From Lentisphaerota bacterium (GTDB lineage Bacteria; Verrucomicrobiota; Lentisphaeria; Victivallales; UBA1829): a stretch of DNA of 64,000 bases. This document shows, in pieces, positions 13,329 to 53,342 of this stretch (positions within the stretch are counted from its first letter, which is position 1; each line of letters begins with the position of its first letter). The notes under the pieces were generated by a model. It did no database searches, was not told where the DNA came from, and saw only the letters and a list, made by a program, of their open reading frames with translations. The stretch is from assembly GCA_015061915.1 (NCBI GenBank), contig SUVR01000006.1, forward strand, positions 62,001 through 126,000, written 5' to 3'. The translations under genes were made by a program, and so were the position numbers.

Positions 13329-13748
13329 TTACTTTGTGGAAGTTCCGCGATTTCTTCCGGATGCATCACGATAGGTGGTGCGTCCGTTTCCATTATCCGT
13401 AGATGTACCGGTGATACGCCCGGATGCGTCCCGGTAGGTGGTACGATTGCCGTTGGTTGTGGCTGTACCGGTGATACGCCCGCTGGCATCCCGGTAGGTG
13501 GTGCGGTTGCCATTGGTTGCAGCACTCCCCGCCATACGCCCGGAAGCGTCCCGGTAGGTGGTGCGGTTTCCGTTTTGCGTGGCACTTCCCGCCATACGCC
13601 CGCTGGCATCACGGTAGATGGTACGGTTACCGTTTTGTGTGGCACTTCCCGCCATACGCCCGCTGCCATCCCGATAGGTGGTACGTTCAACAGCTGTAAG
13701 CGTCAGAGTCAGAGCGGCAGTAAAAACAGCGATCAGAATTGTTTTCAT
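13329..13748 (-). CDS. Secreted YRDASGR-repeat protein
   Basis: The 139-residue product has a cleavable signal peptide (MKTILIAVFTAALTLTLTA) followed almost entirely by about six tandem 20-residue units of the pattern RTTYRDASGRxxGxxxxNGN. The start was placed at the second in-frame ATG (13748) because AGGAG lies 6 bases before it. Each unit would make a short beta hairpin or turn, as in other secreted beta-repeat proteins. No catalytic domain is present, and the function is unknown; a structural or surface-adhesive role is only a guess. Confidence 0.8.
   Translation of the reverse strand: MKTILIAVFTAALTLTLTAVERTTYRDGSGRMAGSATQNGNRTIYRDASGRMAGSATQNGNRTTYRDASGRMAGSAATNGNRTTYRDASGRITGTATTNGNRTTYRDASGRITGTSTDNGNGRTTYRDASGRNRGTSTK
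13340..13690 (-). repeat. 60-bp tandem coding repeat
   Basis: About 5.8 units of 60 bp, one per 20-residue protein repeat. Units differ mostly by single substitutions, and the most alike are the middle ones, consistent with recent unequal recombination or slippage. All units stay in frame. Confidence 0.9.
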
Positions 13749-48987: not shown

Positions 48988-49731
48988 ATGGCAAACGTTT
49001 TTCAAGTAAGAAATCTGAAAAAATCTTTCGGCGATAAAACCGTTCTGAAAGATATTTCTCTCGCCGTCGGTAAAGGCGAAGTCGTTGCCGTGATCGGGCC
49101 CTCCGGGTCCGGCAAGACCACTTTTCTCCGTTGTGCCACCATGCTGGAAGATATGGACAGCGGAGACTTGTGCTTCGGCGATCTGTGCGTAGTAAACAGT
49201 TGGACAAAAGCGATGGCACGGATCAAGTGCGGTCTCGTGTTCCAGAACTTCAACCTCTTCCCCCATTTCTCCGTGCTTCAGAACATAACCGATGCCCCCA
49301 TCCATGTGCAGAAACGGGACAAAAATGAAGTCGTTGAAACGGCAATGAAACTGCTGAAAAAGATGGGACTGGAGGACCGGGCAGACGCATACCCCTGCGA
49401 ACTTTCCGGCGGTCAGCAGCAGCGCGTCTCCATCGCACGGGCTCTGGCAATGAATCCGGAGATCCTGTTCTTCGATGAACCGACATCCGCTCTGGACCCG
49501 GAACTGACCAACGAGATCCTCAAAGTCATCCGCAGCCTCGCCGATGAAAAAATGACCATGGTCATCGTGACCCATGAGATCGATTTCGCCGCCGCTGTGG
49601 CAGACCGGATCATTTTTATGGCGGACGGCTATATCGTGGAAGAAGGCCCCGCCAGAGAACTGGTCGCCAATCCCAAAAACGAACGGACAAGAGCCTTCCT
49701 CGCCGGACTTGATAAGTCCAGCATCTTCTGA
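48988..49731 (+). CDS. Amino-acid ABC transporter ATP-binding protein
   Basis: The 247-residue protein is GlnQ-like: GPSGSGKTTFLRC (Walker A), LSGGQQQRVSIARAL (signature) and FFDEPTSALDPE (Walker B), then an H-loop TMVIVTHEIDFA. It powers uptake with the two preceding genes. It is last in its operon; a GC-rich multi-hairpin element follows between it and the convergent alcohol dehydrogenase gene. Confidence 0.95.
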   Translation: MANVFQVRNLKKSFGDKTVLKDISLAVGKGEVVAVIGPSGSGKTTFLRCATMLEDMDSGDLCFGDLCVVNSWTKAMARIKCGLVFQNFNLFPHFSVLQNITDAPIHVQKRDKNEVVETAMKLLKKMGLEDRADAYPCELSGGQQQRVSIARALAMNPEILFFDEPTSALDPELTNEILKVIRSLADEKMTMVIVTHEIDFAAAVADRIIFMADGYIVEEGPARELVANPKNERTRAFLAGLDKSSIF

Positions 49732-49771
49732 TTCTCCCAACAATACTTGACACAGACTGCACCGGCTCGCA

Positions 49772-49891
49772 GCACGCACGCGGGGACGCGGCGGCGCACA
49801 GGCGGCGCTTGCGCCTGCCTGTGCTATGCGCTGCCCGGCAGCGCAGCACCCCGCTCTGCGGGGGTTGCCGCCGCGTCCCCGCCGTGCGTGC
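49772..49891. repeat. GC-rich cloverleaf palindrome A between convergent genes
   Basis: An outer stem of 23 pairs (GCACGCACG at 49772-49780 with 49883-49891; GGGGACGCGGCGGC at 49782-49795 with 49867-49880; one bulge) encloses three hairpins: GCACAGGC/GCCTGTGC (49796-49824), TGCGCTG/CAGCGCA (49827-49845) and CCCCGC/GCGGGG (49849-49863). Nothing codes here. A related element lies at 53069-53276. It may be a dispersed repeat or a folded RNA. Confidence 0.8.
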
Positions 49892-49912
49892 GTCATCCGC
49901 CCGTTTCCATAC

Positions 49913-49949
49913 AAAAAAGCACCCCGGACCGCATGGATCCGGAGTGCTT
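49913..49949 (-). terminator. Terminator of the alcohol dehydrogenase gene
   Basis: Minus strand: AAGCAC/GTGCTT and CCGGA/TCCGG (49917-49949, one mismatch) followed by a T run (49913-49918). Confidence 0.8.
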
Positions 49950-49974
49950 CGGACTTATCGTTACCGGTTCCGTC

Positions 49975-51177
49975 TTACTTGACGGTCACAGCGACCTTGA
50001 TGCCCTTCATCTGGACGTTGGTTTCCAGAGCTTCCTGGATGTCAGCCAGATCGAAGTGATGGGTCACCAGTTCTTCCACGGGCAGACCGATGCCCTTGGC
50101 GCGCTTGAGGAATGCGAACGTGGTGGGATAATCCTGCGGCGTGTAGACCCAGGAGCCGACCAGTGCGATTTCCTTGTTGCAGATGTCGAAGTGGTGATTG
50201 ATGGAACATTCGCCGCCGTCCATGAAGAACCCGACTTCGCACATACCACCGCCGCGACGGACCATCTTCCATGCGTTCTTTGCAGCTGCAGCCACGCCGG
50301 TACACTGGATGAGGAATTCGGCGCCGAGGCCATCGGTCGCAGCCTTCACGTCGGCGAGCTGATCTTCAAACTTCTTGTAGTTCATGAAGTTGATCGTTGT
50401 CGTTGCGCCCATACGCTTGGCGAATTCCAGACGGTTGTCGTTGCCATCGACGGCGATGATATTTTCGATACCCAGCGTACGGAGGACCGCCATAACCATC
50501 AGACCGATGGGACCGCAGCCCTGAACGAGGACTTTCGTATCGAAGCGGAGCAGACCGGTCAGTTTGGCGCGTTCCACAGCGTGGATGGCAACGGCTGCCG
50601 GTTCCACCAGCATCCGCTGATCCAGCGTCATGCCATTCACTTTGAAGACGGTGGAGTTTTTACGGATCACGAGATATTCCGCAAAGTAGCCGTTAAAGTG
50701 GATATCATCATCCGGGTTCAGACCGTAGATACCGCTCTTTTCGCACATATTGGTGCGGGCGGGGGTATTGCGGCAGGCGTTACATTCGCCGCAGGGAATG
50801 ATGCAGGTAACGATCTGGTCGCCGACGCCCAGCGGTGCGCCGGTGAAGTCGGTCGTGATGTTCTTGCCGATCTTGACGATCGTACCGGAGCCTTCATGAC
50901 CGAGAACAGTGGGGCAGAGACCGAAGGGGTCGCGCTTGTATTCGTGTCCGTCCGTGCCGCAGACGCCACAGCCTTCCACCTTGACCAGCATTTCATCATC
51001 GCTGATTTCGGGGATCGCGTATTCGCGCAGTTCAAACTTGCCCGGTTCCACCAGAACGGCGGCCTTGGCTTTTTTCGGAATCGTGAACTTTTTGGGTGCG
51101 GCTTTCGCGGCGCACTTCTTGCAGGCTGCCTTTTTCGGGGCTGCCGCTGCTTTTTTCGGGGCTGCTTTCTTTGCCAT
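49975..51177 (-). CDS. Zinc-dependent alcohol/polyol dehydrogenase with Lys/Ala-rich N-terminal tail
   Basis: The 400-residue protein is a medium-chain dehydrogenase (about 40-400): GCGVCGTDGHEY (catalytic Zn), LGHEGSG, structural-Zn cysteines in CGECNACRNTPARTNMC, and QGCGPIGLMVMAVLRTLG (NAD-binding Rossmann). Sorbitol or threonine dehydrogenase-like reactions are possible. Unusually, about 35 residues of the type KKAAPKKAAAAPKKAACKKC precede the domain, rich in Lys, Ala and Pro with a CxxC. The tail resembles histone H1-like bacterial proteins. ATG at 51177 follows GAGGAG. Confidence 0.88.
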   Translation of the reverse strand: MAKKAAPKKAAAAPKKAACKKCAAKAAPKKFTIPKKAKAAVLVEPGKFELREYAIPEISDDEMLVKVEGCGVCGTDGHEYKRDPFGLCPTVLGHEGSGTIVKIGKNITTDFTGAPLGVGDQIVTCIIPCGECNACRNTPARTNMCEKSGIYGLNPDDDIHFNGYFAEYLVIRKNSTVFKVNGMTLDQRMLVEPAAVAIHAVERAKLTGLLRFDTKVLVQGCGPIGLMVMAVLRTLGIENIIAVDGNDNRLEFAKRMGATTTINFMNYKKFEDQLADVKAATDGLGAEFLIQCTGVAAAAKNAWKMVRRGGGMCEVGFFMDGGECSINHHFDICNKEIALVGSWVYTPQDYPTTFAFLKRAKGIGLPVEELVTHHFDLADIQEALETNVQMKGIKVAVTVK

Positions 51178-53068: not shown

Positions 53069-53276
53069 AGCAACCCGCCTCCGGCAGAGACGCGAGGCGC
53101 GGAGCTGCGCCGCCACGGTAAAAAAACCGGGCGGCGCGCTTTTTTTGCGCGGCGGTTAAACCCACACGGTCAGCGCAGTACTCCGCCGCCGCGCAAAAAA
53201 AGCAGCCCTGACCGCCGTTACCGGCGGTCAGGGCATGGCTCCGCGCCCCGCGCTCTGCCGGGGTGGCATCCTTGCT
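53069..53276. repeat. GC-rich palindrome B with three inner hairpins between convergent genes
   Basis: An outer stem (CCGGCAGAG at 53081-53089 with 53253-53261; CGCG at 53091-53094 with 53249-53252; GGCGCGGAGC at 53096-53105 with 53238-53247) has 23 pairs, as in element A. Inside are GCGCCGC/GCGGCGC near 53107-53137, an 18 bp perfect inverted repeat (53138-53155 with 53186-53203, including seven T) and a perfect 12 bp hairpin CCCTGACCGCCG/CGGCGGTCAGGG (53206-53233). A 5 bp AGCAA/TTGCT pair flanks it. It does not code. Confidence 0.8.
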
Positions 53277-53288
53277 CACGACACAAAA

Positions 53289-53320
53289 AAAACGGACATC
53301 GTTTTACCGGTGTCCGTTTT
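53289..53320. terminator. Bidirectional terminator between DUF4091 and RRM genes
   Basis: AAAACGGACA (53289-53298) pairs with TGTCCGTTTT (53311-53320). A T run follows in both directions (the A run at 53285-53292 on the minus strand). Confidence 0.8.
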
Positions 53321-53342
53321 GAGAAATCAAAGGGGGGTGAAC

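Follow-up and report, generated by a model that had tools for sequence, protein, structure and literature searches.

Three-armed palindromes near gene 3′ ends of a Lentisphaerota gut bacterium: a family alike in fold, with its own sequence at each locus

Results

The locus of element A

The window, as the term is used here, is the whole stretch of 64,000 nucleotides that was analysed, positions 62,001-126,000 of contig SUVR01000006.1 (assembly GCA_015061915.1) from a Lentisphaerota gut bacterium (Bacteria; Verrucomicrobiota; Lentisphaeria; Victivallales; UBA1829). Two convergent genes of this window, separated by a strongly folding palindrome that will be called element A, make up the locus under study. 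Both gene names are putative, that of the ATPase coming from sequence motifs in its translation and that of the alcohol dehydrogenase (ADH) being carried over from an earlier sequence reading.

48988-49731, plus strand: putative ABC transporter ATPase gene, stop codon 40 bp ahead of element A (ORF and gene call)
49772-49795, no strand: element A, outer stem, 5′ strand (fold)
49796-49824, no strand: element A, arm 1, 12 pairs (fold)
49827-49845, no strand: element A, arm 2, 8 pairs, free of T/A tracts (fold)
49846-49865, no strand: element A, arm 3, 8 pairs (fold)
49867-49891, no strand: element A, outer stem, 3′ strand, with one bulge (fold)
49916-49950, minus strand: intrinsic terminator of the ADH gene, apart from element A (terminator scan)
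49975-51177, minus strand: putative zinc-type ADH gene, stop codon 83 bp from element A (gene call)

An earlier note on this DNA had described a cloverleaf at 49772-49891, with a 23-pair outer stem enclosing three hairpins, between convergent genes and next to a separate ADH terminator at 49913-49949. Folding recovers the cloverleaf with its three arms of 12, 8 and 8 pairs, whereas the outer stem counts 24 pairs and one bulge; the genes do converge, ending at 49731 (plus) and 49975 (minus), and a distinct minus-strand terminator lies at 49916-49950. The fold is present on both strands, with −106 kcal/mol for the plus strand (z −9.55) and −104.8 kcal/mol for the minus strand (z −9.16), in each case with 0/200 shuffles as good and with shuffled versions averaging about −70 kcal/mol. 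Folded as single-stranded DNA, the element gives −68.9 (z −10.6).

A search of Rfam gave no match above the gathering score anywhere in the 64-kb window. BLASTN of positions 49760-49900 against the 2.49-Mb genome, the check for a second copy that the earlier note had called for, hit nothing but the queried locus, the inverted arms of the element and some short fragments, so that no second copy exists by sequence. Short fragments of that search, however, landed on other palindromes of the same architecture, and the element, though unique in sequence, is therefore not unique in structure.

A second palindrome of the window, element B (53075-53266; −153 kcal/mol, z −12.75), shares the design of element A with another sequence, and a third one is found 5 kb past the end of the window.

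53075-53106, no strand: element B, outer stem, 5′ strand, including GGCGCGG (fold)
53107-53137, no strand: element B, arm 1 (fold)
53138-53203, no strand: element B, arm 2, with a large loop and the base GCTTTTTTT...AAAAAAAGC (fold)
53205-53234, no strand: element B, arm 3 (fold), followed by a minus-strand T7 and scanning as an intrinsic terminator
53237-53266, no strand: element B, outer stem, 3′ strand (fold)

The minus-strand neighbour of element B appears to have its own terminator just before the element (53283-53322, read by eye). Elsewhere in the window, a tandem repeat of four copies with a 60-base period, 73-75% alike, occupies positions 13377-13685.

A family recognised by its shape

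The survey was performed by folding sliding windows of 200 bases over 868,665 bases of the same genome (the window, L020 and L060-L099) and keeping the energy outliers given their GC content (z ≤ −4.8), a selection based on folding energy and not on the number of arms. The 34 elements of this 869-kb scan, together with one located by BLAST (L005), make up a set of 35, and all 35 show exactly three arms and one outer stem, each with its own sequence. The parsing was automatic for 33 of them; for L020 and L089 the automatic boundaries had failed, and the windows were set anew by hand. The elements make up a family by shape, with a different sequence at each locus.

Their length ranges from 120 to 194 bases (mean 151), with on average 23 pairs in the outer stem (range 14-42) and 12, 18.5 and 11 pairs in the successive arms, the middle arm being the longest in 27/35 elements. 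A paired A5/T5 tract is found in 26/35, mostly at the base of the middle arm, and the GC content of the elements is 0.67 versus 0.53 for the sample. The density of the scan would correspond to about 97 elements per genome, and scaling by the genome-wide tally of the outer-stem motif described below (30 versus 16 in the sample) gives about 65. Eight candidates of the same genome whose z fell in the range from −4.8 to −3.8 were left out of the count (L063, L068:3625, L066, L075, L091, L081 and two in L095); that of L091 has three arms in a diffuse parse of 346 bases, and the others have 0, 2 or 5 arms. Six stretches outside the survey of this genome look structured (L104, L115, L118, L023, L030 and L196), but their parse is not that of a compact three-arm element.

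Placement at gene 3′ ends

With the elements masked, 34 of them could be assigned to 22 convergent, nine tandem and three divergent gaps, although the label of any single element can be wrong because our home-made gene caller misplaces some starts. Convergent placement is thus found in 22/34 elements as compared to 92/655 gene pairs (14%), an odds ratio of 14 (Fisher P 2e-12), and 22/93 convergent gaps carry an element. Most convergent members take up the gap, the neighbouring stop codons being no more than about 30 bp away. Two elements, L069:10599 and L068:482, are located within the N-terminal part of open reading frames. In the case of L068:482, the homology of the host frame with its relatives starts right behind the element, at about residue 56, which makes it a leader or an N-terminal extension and not a domain insertion; this frame (L068:434-2020) passes through the three-armed palindrome ahead of a conserved domain, and its product is one that we take, from its motifs, to be a MEMO/AMMECR1-like protein.

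Such a distribution is that of REP sequences, for which section 15 of PMC3733652 describes the same placement, within about 20 bp of both 3′ ends in convergent gaps or, in tandem pairs, behind the upstream gene, with a few N-terminal cases in ORFs. As with REPs and BIMEs, the present elements are dispersed and extragenic and neighbour the 3′ ends of genes, for the most part in convergent or tandem gaps, with some N-terminal cases. However, REPs are single hairpins of 20-40 bp in many near-identical copies, whereas the elements described here are four-way junctions of 120-194 bp in which each copy has its own sequence.

Strand symmetry and terminator signals

A hairpin followed by T5 or longer within 4 nt occurs on both strands in 23/35 elements, on one strand in 2/35 and on neither in 10/35, with element A among the last. 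These tracts are present in 19/22 convergent elements versus 5/12 of the others (P 0.01), a pattern that would fit two-way terminators. With bidirectional intrinsic terminators the elements share their placement, stems under a two-strand constraint and, in 23/35 members only, a hairpin and T-run on both strands; PMC5381666 reports stronger conservation for terminators common to convergent genes. In contrast to such terminators, the elements add an outer stem of 14-42 pairs, exactly three arms and a shared outer-stem motif, and some lack any T-run. The earlier note was right in taking element A for more than a bare terminator.

G-T wobbles account for 57/2252 pairs (2.5%) across the elements, whereas the stems of 70 stand-alone terminators of the same genome hold 9.8% G-T and 5.4% A-C, as obtained by a different counting procedure. 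In the nine tandem elements, there are 8 G-T wobbles on the sense strand versus 15 on the antisense strand, and the comparison of G-T with A-C in these nine contexts showed no sense-strand RNA signature; in convergent elements, both strands are about equal (36 and 38). Rare wobbles without strand preference suggest that pairing is held on both strands, or in DNA.

The outer-stem motif and the question of mobility

The motif GGCGC[AG]G is found in the outer 5′ strand of 15/35 elements versus 1.3 expected from shuffling (maximum 5 in 500), in 0/105 arm halves and never in the reversed form. Its paired pattern, GGCGCRG-N{90,120}-CYGCGCC, is informative only as an excess over control, and it occurs 30 times in the same genome versus once for the backward control and 10 times versus 2 in the sole genome of the same genus; across 137 genomes, it stays mostly near the control level elsewhere, with an excess in some distant genomes too (G073, 78 versus 28; G090, 10 versus 1). 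With the T/A tracts masked, local similarity among the elements reaches a mean of 22.1 versus 18.6 in pair-preserving shuffles, and a maximum of 49 versus 40. The similarity between elements thus appears only somewhat above that of shuffles, and the outer-stem signature looks weak.

These data bear on the main rival of a transcript boundary, a DNA-structure element that is perhaps a mobile relic and that we regard as unlikely overall, though well ahead of the remaining alternatives. A single strand or an extruded cruciform would be bound or cut by a structure-specific protein (a nucleoid protein, a recombinase or an enzyme from a mobile element that has since died out), with the outer-stem motif as its binding site, gene 3′ ends as tolerated places of insertion, and T-runs recruited later. 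The confinement of the motif to outer stems, its genome-wide excess and the slight similarity among members all speak for such an element, as do the near-perfect Watson-Crick pairing without strand preference, the stability of the fold as DNA and the two in-frame members, which have no T-runs.

The tests of mobility point the other way. The longest flank repeat averages 3.71 versus 3.72 in shuffled pairings, so no target-site duplication was detected, and near-identical copies were not found. A search with the RAYT/Y1 transposase profile PF01797 gave one truncated match in G000, the genome under study (positions 2-60 of a 121-position profile), and none in the sister species G001. According to PMC3733652, REPs carry GTAG or CGTC at one end, CGTC REPs being likewise devoid of a dedicated transposase. 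Near the ends of the present elements, GTAG was found in 1/35 (shuffled mean 3.8, sd 1.7) and CGTC in 10/35 (shuffled 6.6, sd 2.2), which is no clear excess, and, together with the lack of an intact RAYT-type gene in the PF01797 search, sets the elements further apart from REPs. They share with MITEs, and with the GC clusters, double-hairpin and repetitive hairpin elements of mitochondria (PMC2800124, PMC4478555), a compact, non-coding, multi-hairpin and GC-rich nature, and differ from them in having neither sequence copies nor duplicated targets. The outer stems are themselves inverted repeats that have a weak motif in common, and the search for a parent transposon covered Y1 only.

Conservation in the sister species

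Thirteen elements were sought in G001, where the flanks are about 85-95% identical. Four are present in full, two are cut to half by a contig that stops within the middle arm, one site (that of element B) is occupied by a different dispersed repeat, three have a contig end at the element or within about 170 bp (A, L073:13056 and L083:14737; in the case of element A, at its left edge) and three gave no aligned sequence. Among the seven judgeable sites (six with a full or half element, one replaced), there is no clean empty site, a further point against a mobile DNA element. The earlier note had proposed either a multibranched RNA or a BIME- or MITE-like mobile palindrome. A dispersed palindrome class with BIME/REP-like placement does exist, but MITE-like mobility lacks sequence copies, target duplications and a clean empty site, and the only Y1 transposase is truncated. 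A multibranched RNA may still be formed, although wobble usage does not favour the sense strand.

The occupant of the B site belongs to a second dispersed repeat (L131:3085-3460, minus strand, G001), hairpin-rich and conserved in sequence, mostly at 73-93% identity, with about a dozen long matches in G000, about 10 in G001 and none in six other genomes; a short stretch adjoining it resembles the outer-stem end of element B.

The three-armed fold is kept in 4/4 full orthologues, with changes at 27/448 paired versus 16/50 unpaired positions. A pairwise comparison that favours structure leaves 210 pairs unchanged, with three one-sided and four two-sided changes, 28 pair gains or losses and 9/12 loops different, while a plain sequence alignment scores 9/19 changed pairs as broken, some of them through misregister. 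As judged from these alignments, stems appear to change far less than loops, partly through matched changes, in agreement with PMC13155455, which reports less variation in the inverted-repeat arms near terminators than in their spacers.

Matched changes would also be expected if ordinary two-way terminators had been extended and perfected through template switching from one arm of a quasi-palindrome to the other, with copying and not selection keeping the pairing. In line with this mutational by-product, arm pairs change together, as in arm 2 of L083:11944, where the two sides differ by two bases in a matched way, and in the several pair changes of L085:12341, and perfection extends to both strands. 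However, copying predicts neither three arms in 35/35 elements nor a motif restricted to the outer stem, and stems change less than their surroundings (L067:7541, one change in 114 paired bases within a region 86% identical). Moreover, template switching is to our knowledge universal, whereas the elements are absent from the other genera sampled. We consider the by-product improbable; in the reading that we prefer (see Discussion), the pairing would be maintained by selection and not by repair that copies the palindrome.

The same comparison weighs on a family of structured RNAs, regulatory or trans-acting, that the element loci would express. The four-way junction is very stable on RNA parameters and its stems are conserved in the sister species, but Rfam gave no match in the window, no loop or internal sequence was seen to be conserved among the members, loops differ even between orthologues and a sense-strand wobble preference is absent, which leaves this explanation very improbable.

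Palindromes can arise from chimeric reads, and the contigs of the sister species do break at the elements. Chance or an assembly artefact is nevertheless refuted for practical purposes by the z values of −9.6 (A) and −12.8 (B) and by the four complete orthologues in a separate assembly.

Distribution in other bacteria

The same scan over 1,103,909 bases of other genera and more distant bacteria (36 loci, 13 stretches and 20 stretches) gave one doubtful exception in another genus, L048:11312-11437, beside a tRNA and with three arms over an outer stem of just 7 pairs, and a weak three-armed structure, L034:10455-10562 (z −3.9), that was left uncounted. The contigs C192, C38 and C228 of G001 end inside or at the edge of palindromes, which indicates that the elements fragment assemblies; the absence elsewhere is accordingly weakened by assembly bias, many of the sampled genomes being fragmented, while several do have long contigs (G003, G020, G027, G028, G036 and G045). 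A family limited to one genus is the best reading of these data.

Two observations were made along the way. In other Lentisphaeria, L023:9549-9631 and L030:2725-2899 have in common a long hairpin with a GGGAAAACTTCTTTTCTC-type stem, a different palindrome family. At L048:11260-11540, a stretch with strong structure comes after a tRNA-like gene, and the tRNA 3′ end is then repeated (read by eye), an arrangement such as an integrated element leaves behind.

Discussion

Two-way termination leaves both the outer stem and the members without T-runs unexplained. An intrinsic terminator firing at the T-run of arm 2 would leave the other strand of the outer stem untranscribed, so that termination alone does not suffice for that stem. 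These gaps lead to the reading that we prefer, and to which we give a little less than an even chance: element A would be a member of a genus-limited family of three-armed palindromes at gene 3′ ends, acting as symmetric transcript boundaries, that is, as two-way terminators or barriers. Since the shape of an element is unchanged by reverse complementation, transcription would meet an identical cloverleaf whichever side it came from. The left-hand transcript would, in most members, be stopped by arm 1 or arm 2 with its T-run, and the right-hand one by the mirror-image parts. The closed cloverleaf, either in read-through RNA or in extruded DNA, would hold back antisense read-through as well as 3′ exonucleases. 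Given that element A has no T-run, only this barrier part can apply to it. It is similarly somewhat short of even that termination is one common component of the family and the two-strand cloverleaf its constant one. Termination, exonuclease blocking and cruciform extrusion at the elements may each take place.

Several data count against a symmetric boundary, namely the 10 members without a T-run, the separate terminator of the neighbour of element B, the three divergent and two in-frame members, and the pairs that a plain alignment scores as broken. Moreover, a role played in RNA only predicts an excess of wobbles tolerated on the sense strand, contrary to what the nine tandem elements show.

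Among known systems, integron attC sites are more conserved in structure than in sequence and work as folded single strands. The elements resemble them in keeping structure over sequence, and differ in that no cassette array was seen. Literature searches covering mostly freely accessible papers listed no palindrome family combining a fixed three-armed topology with a variable sequence.

Repeat families are usually recognised by their sequence, and one held together by its fold alone evades BLAST and repeat finders; such families may be common in unstudied phyla. The elements may also be an overlooked reason why assemblies are fragmented. The fuller proposition is that of a family whose identity is its topology, a near-perfect three-armed cloverleaf of DNA or RNA that keeps its palindromic pairing on both strands, differs in sequence from locus to locus except for a short outer-stem motif, and acts as a symmetric boundary of convergent units in one genus; we put it forward tentatively, as somewhat less probable than the boundary role taken by itself. 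These elements offer a natural test of what keeps perfect palindromes at convergent ends, be it selection on transcript ends, DNA structure or arm-to-arm copying.
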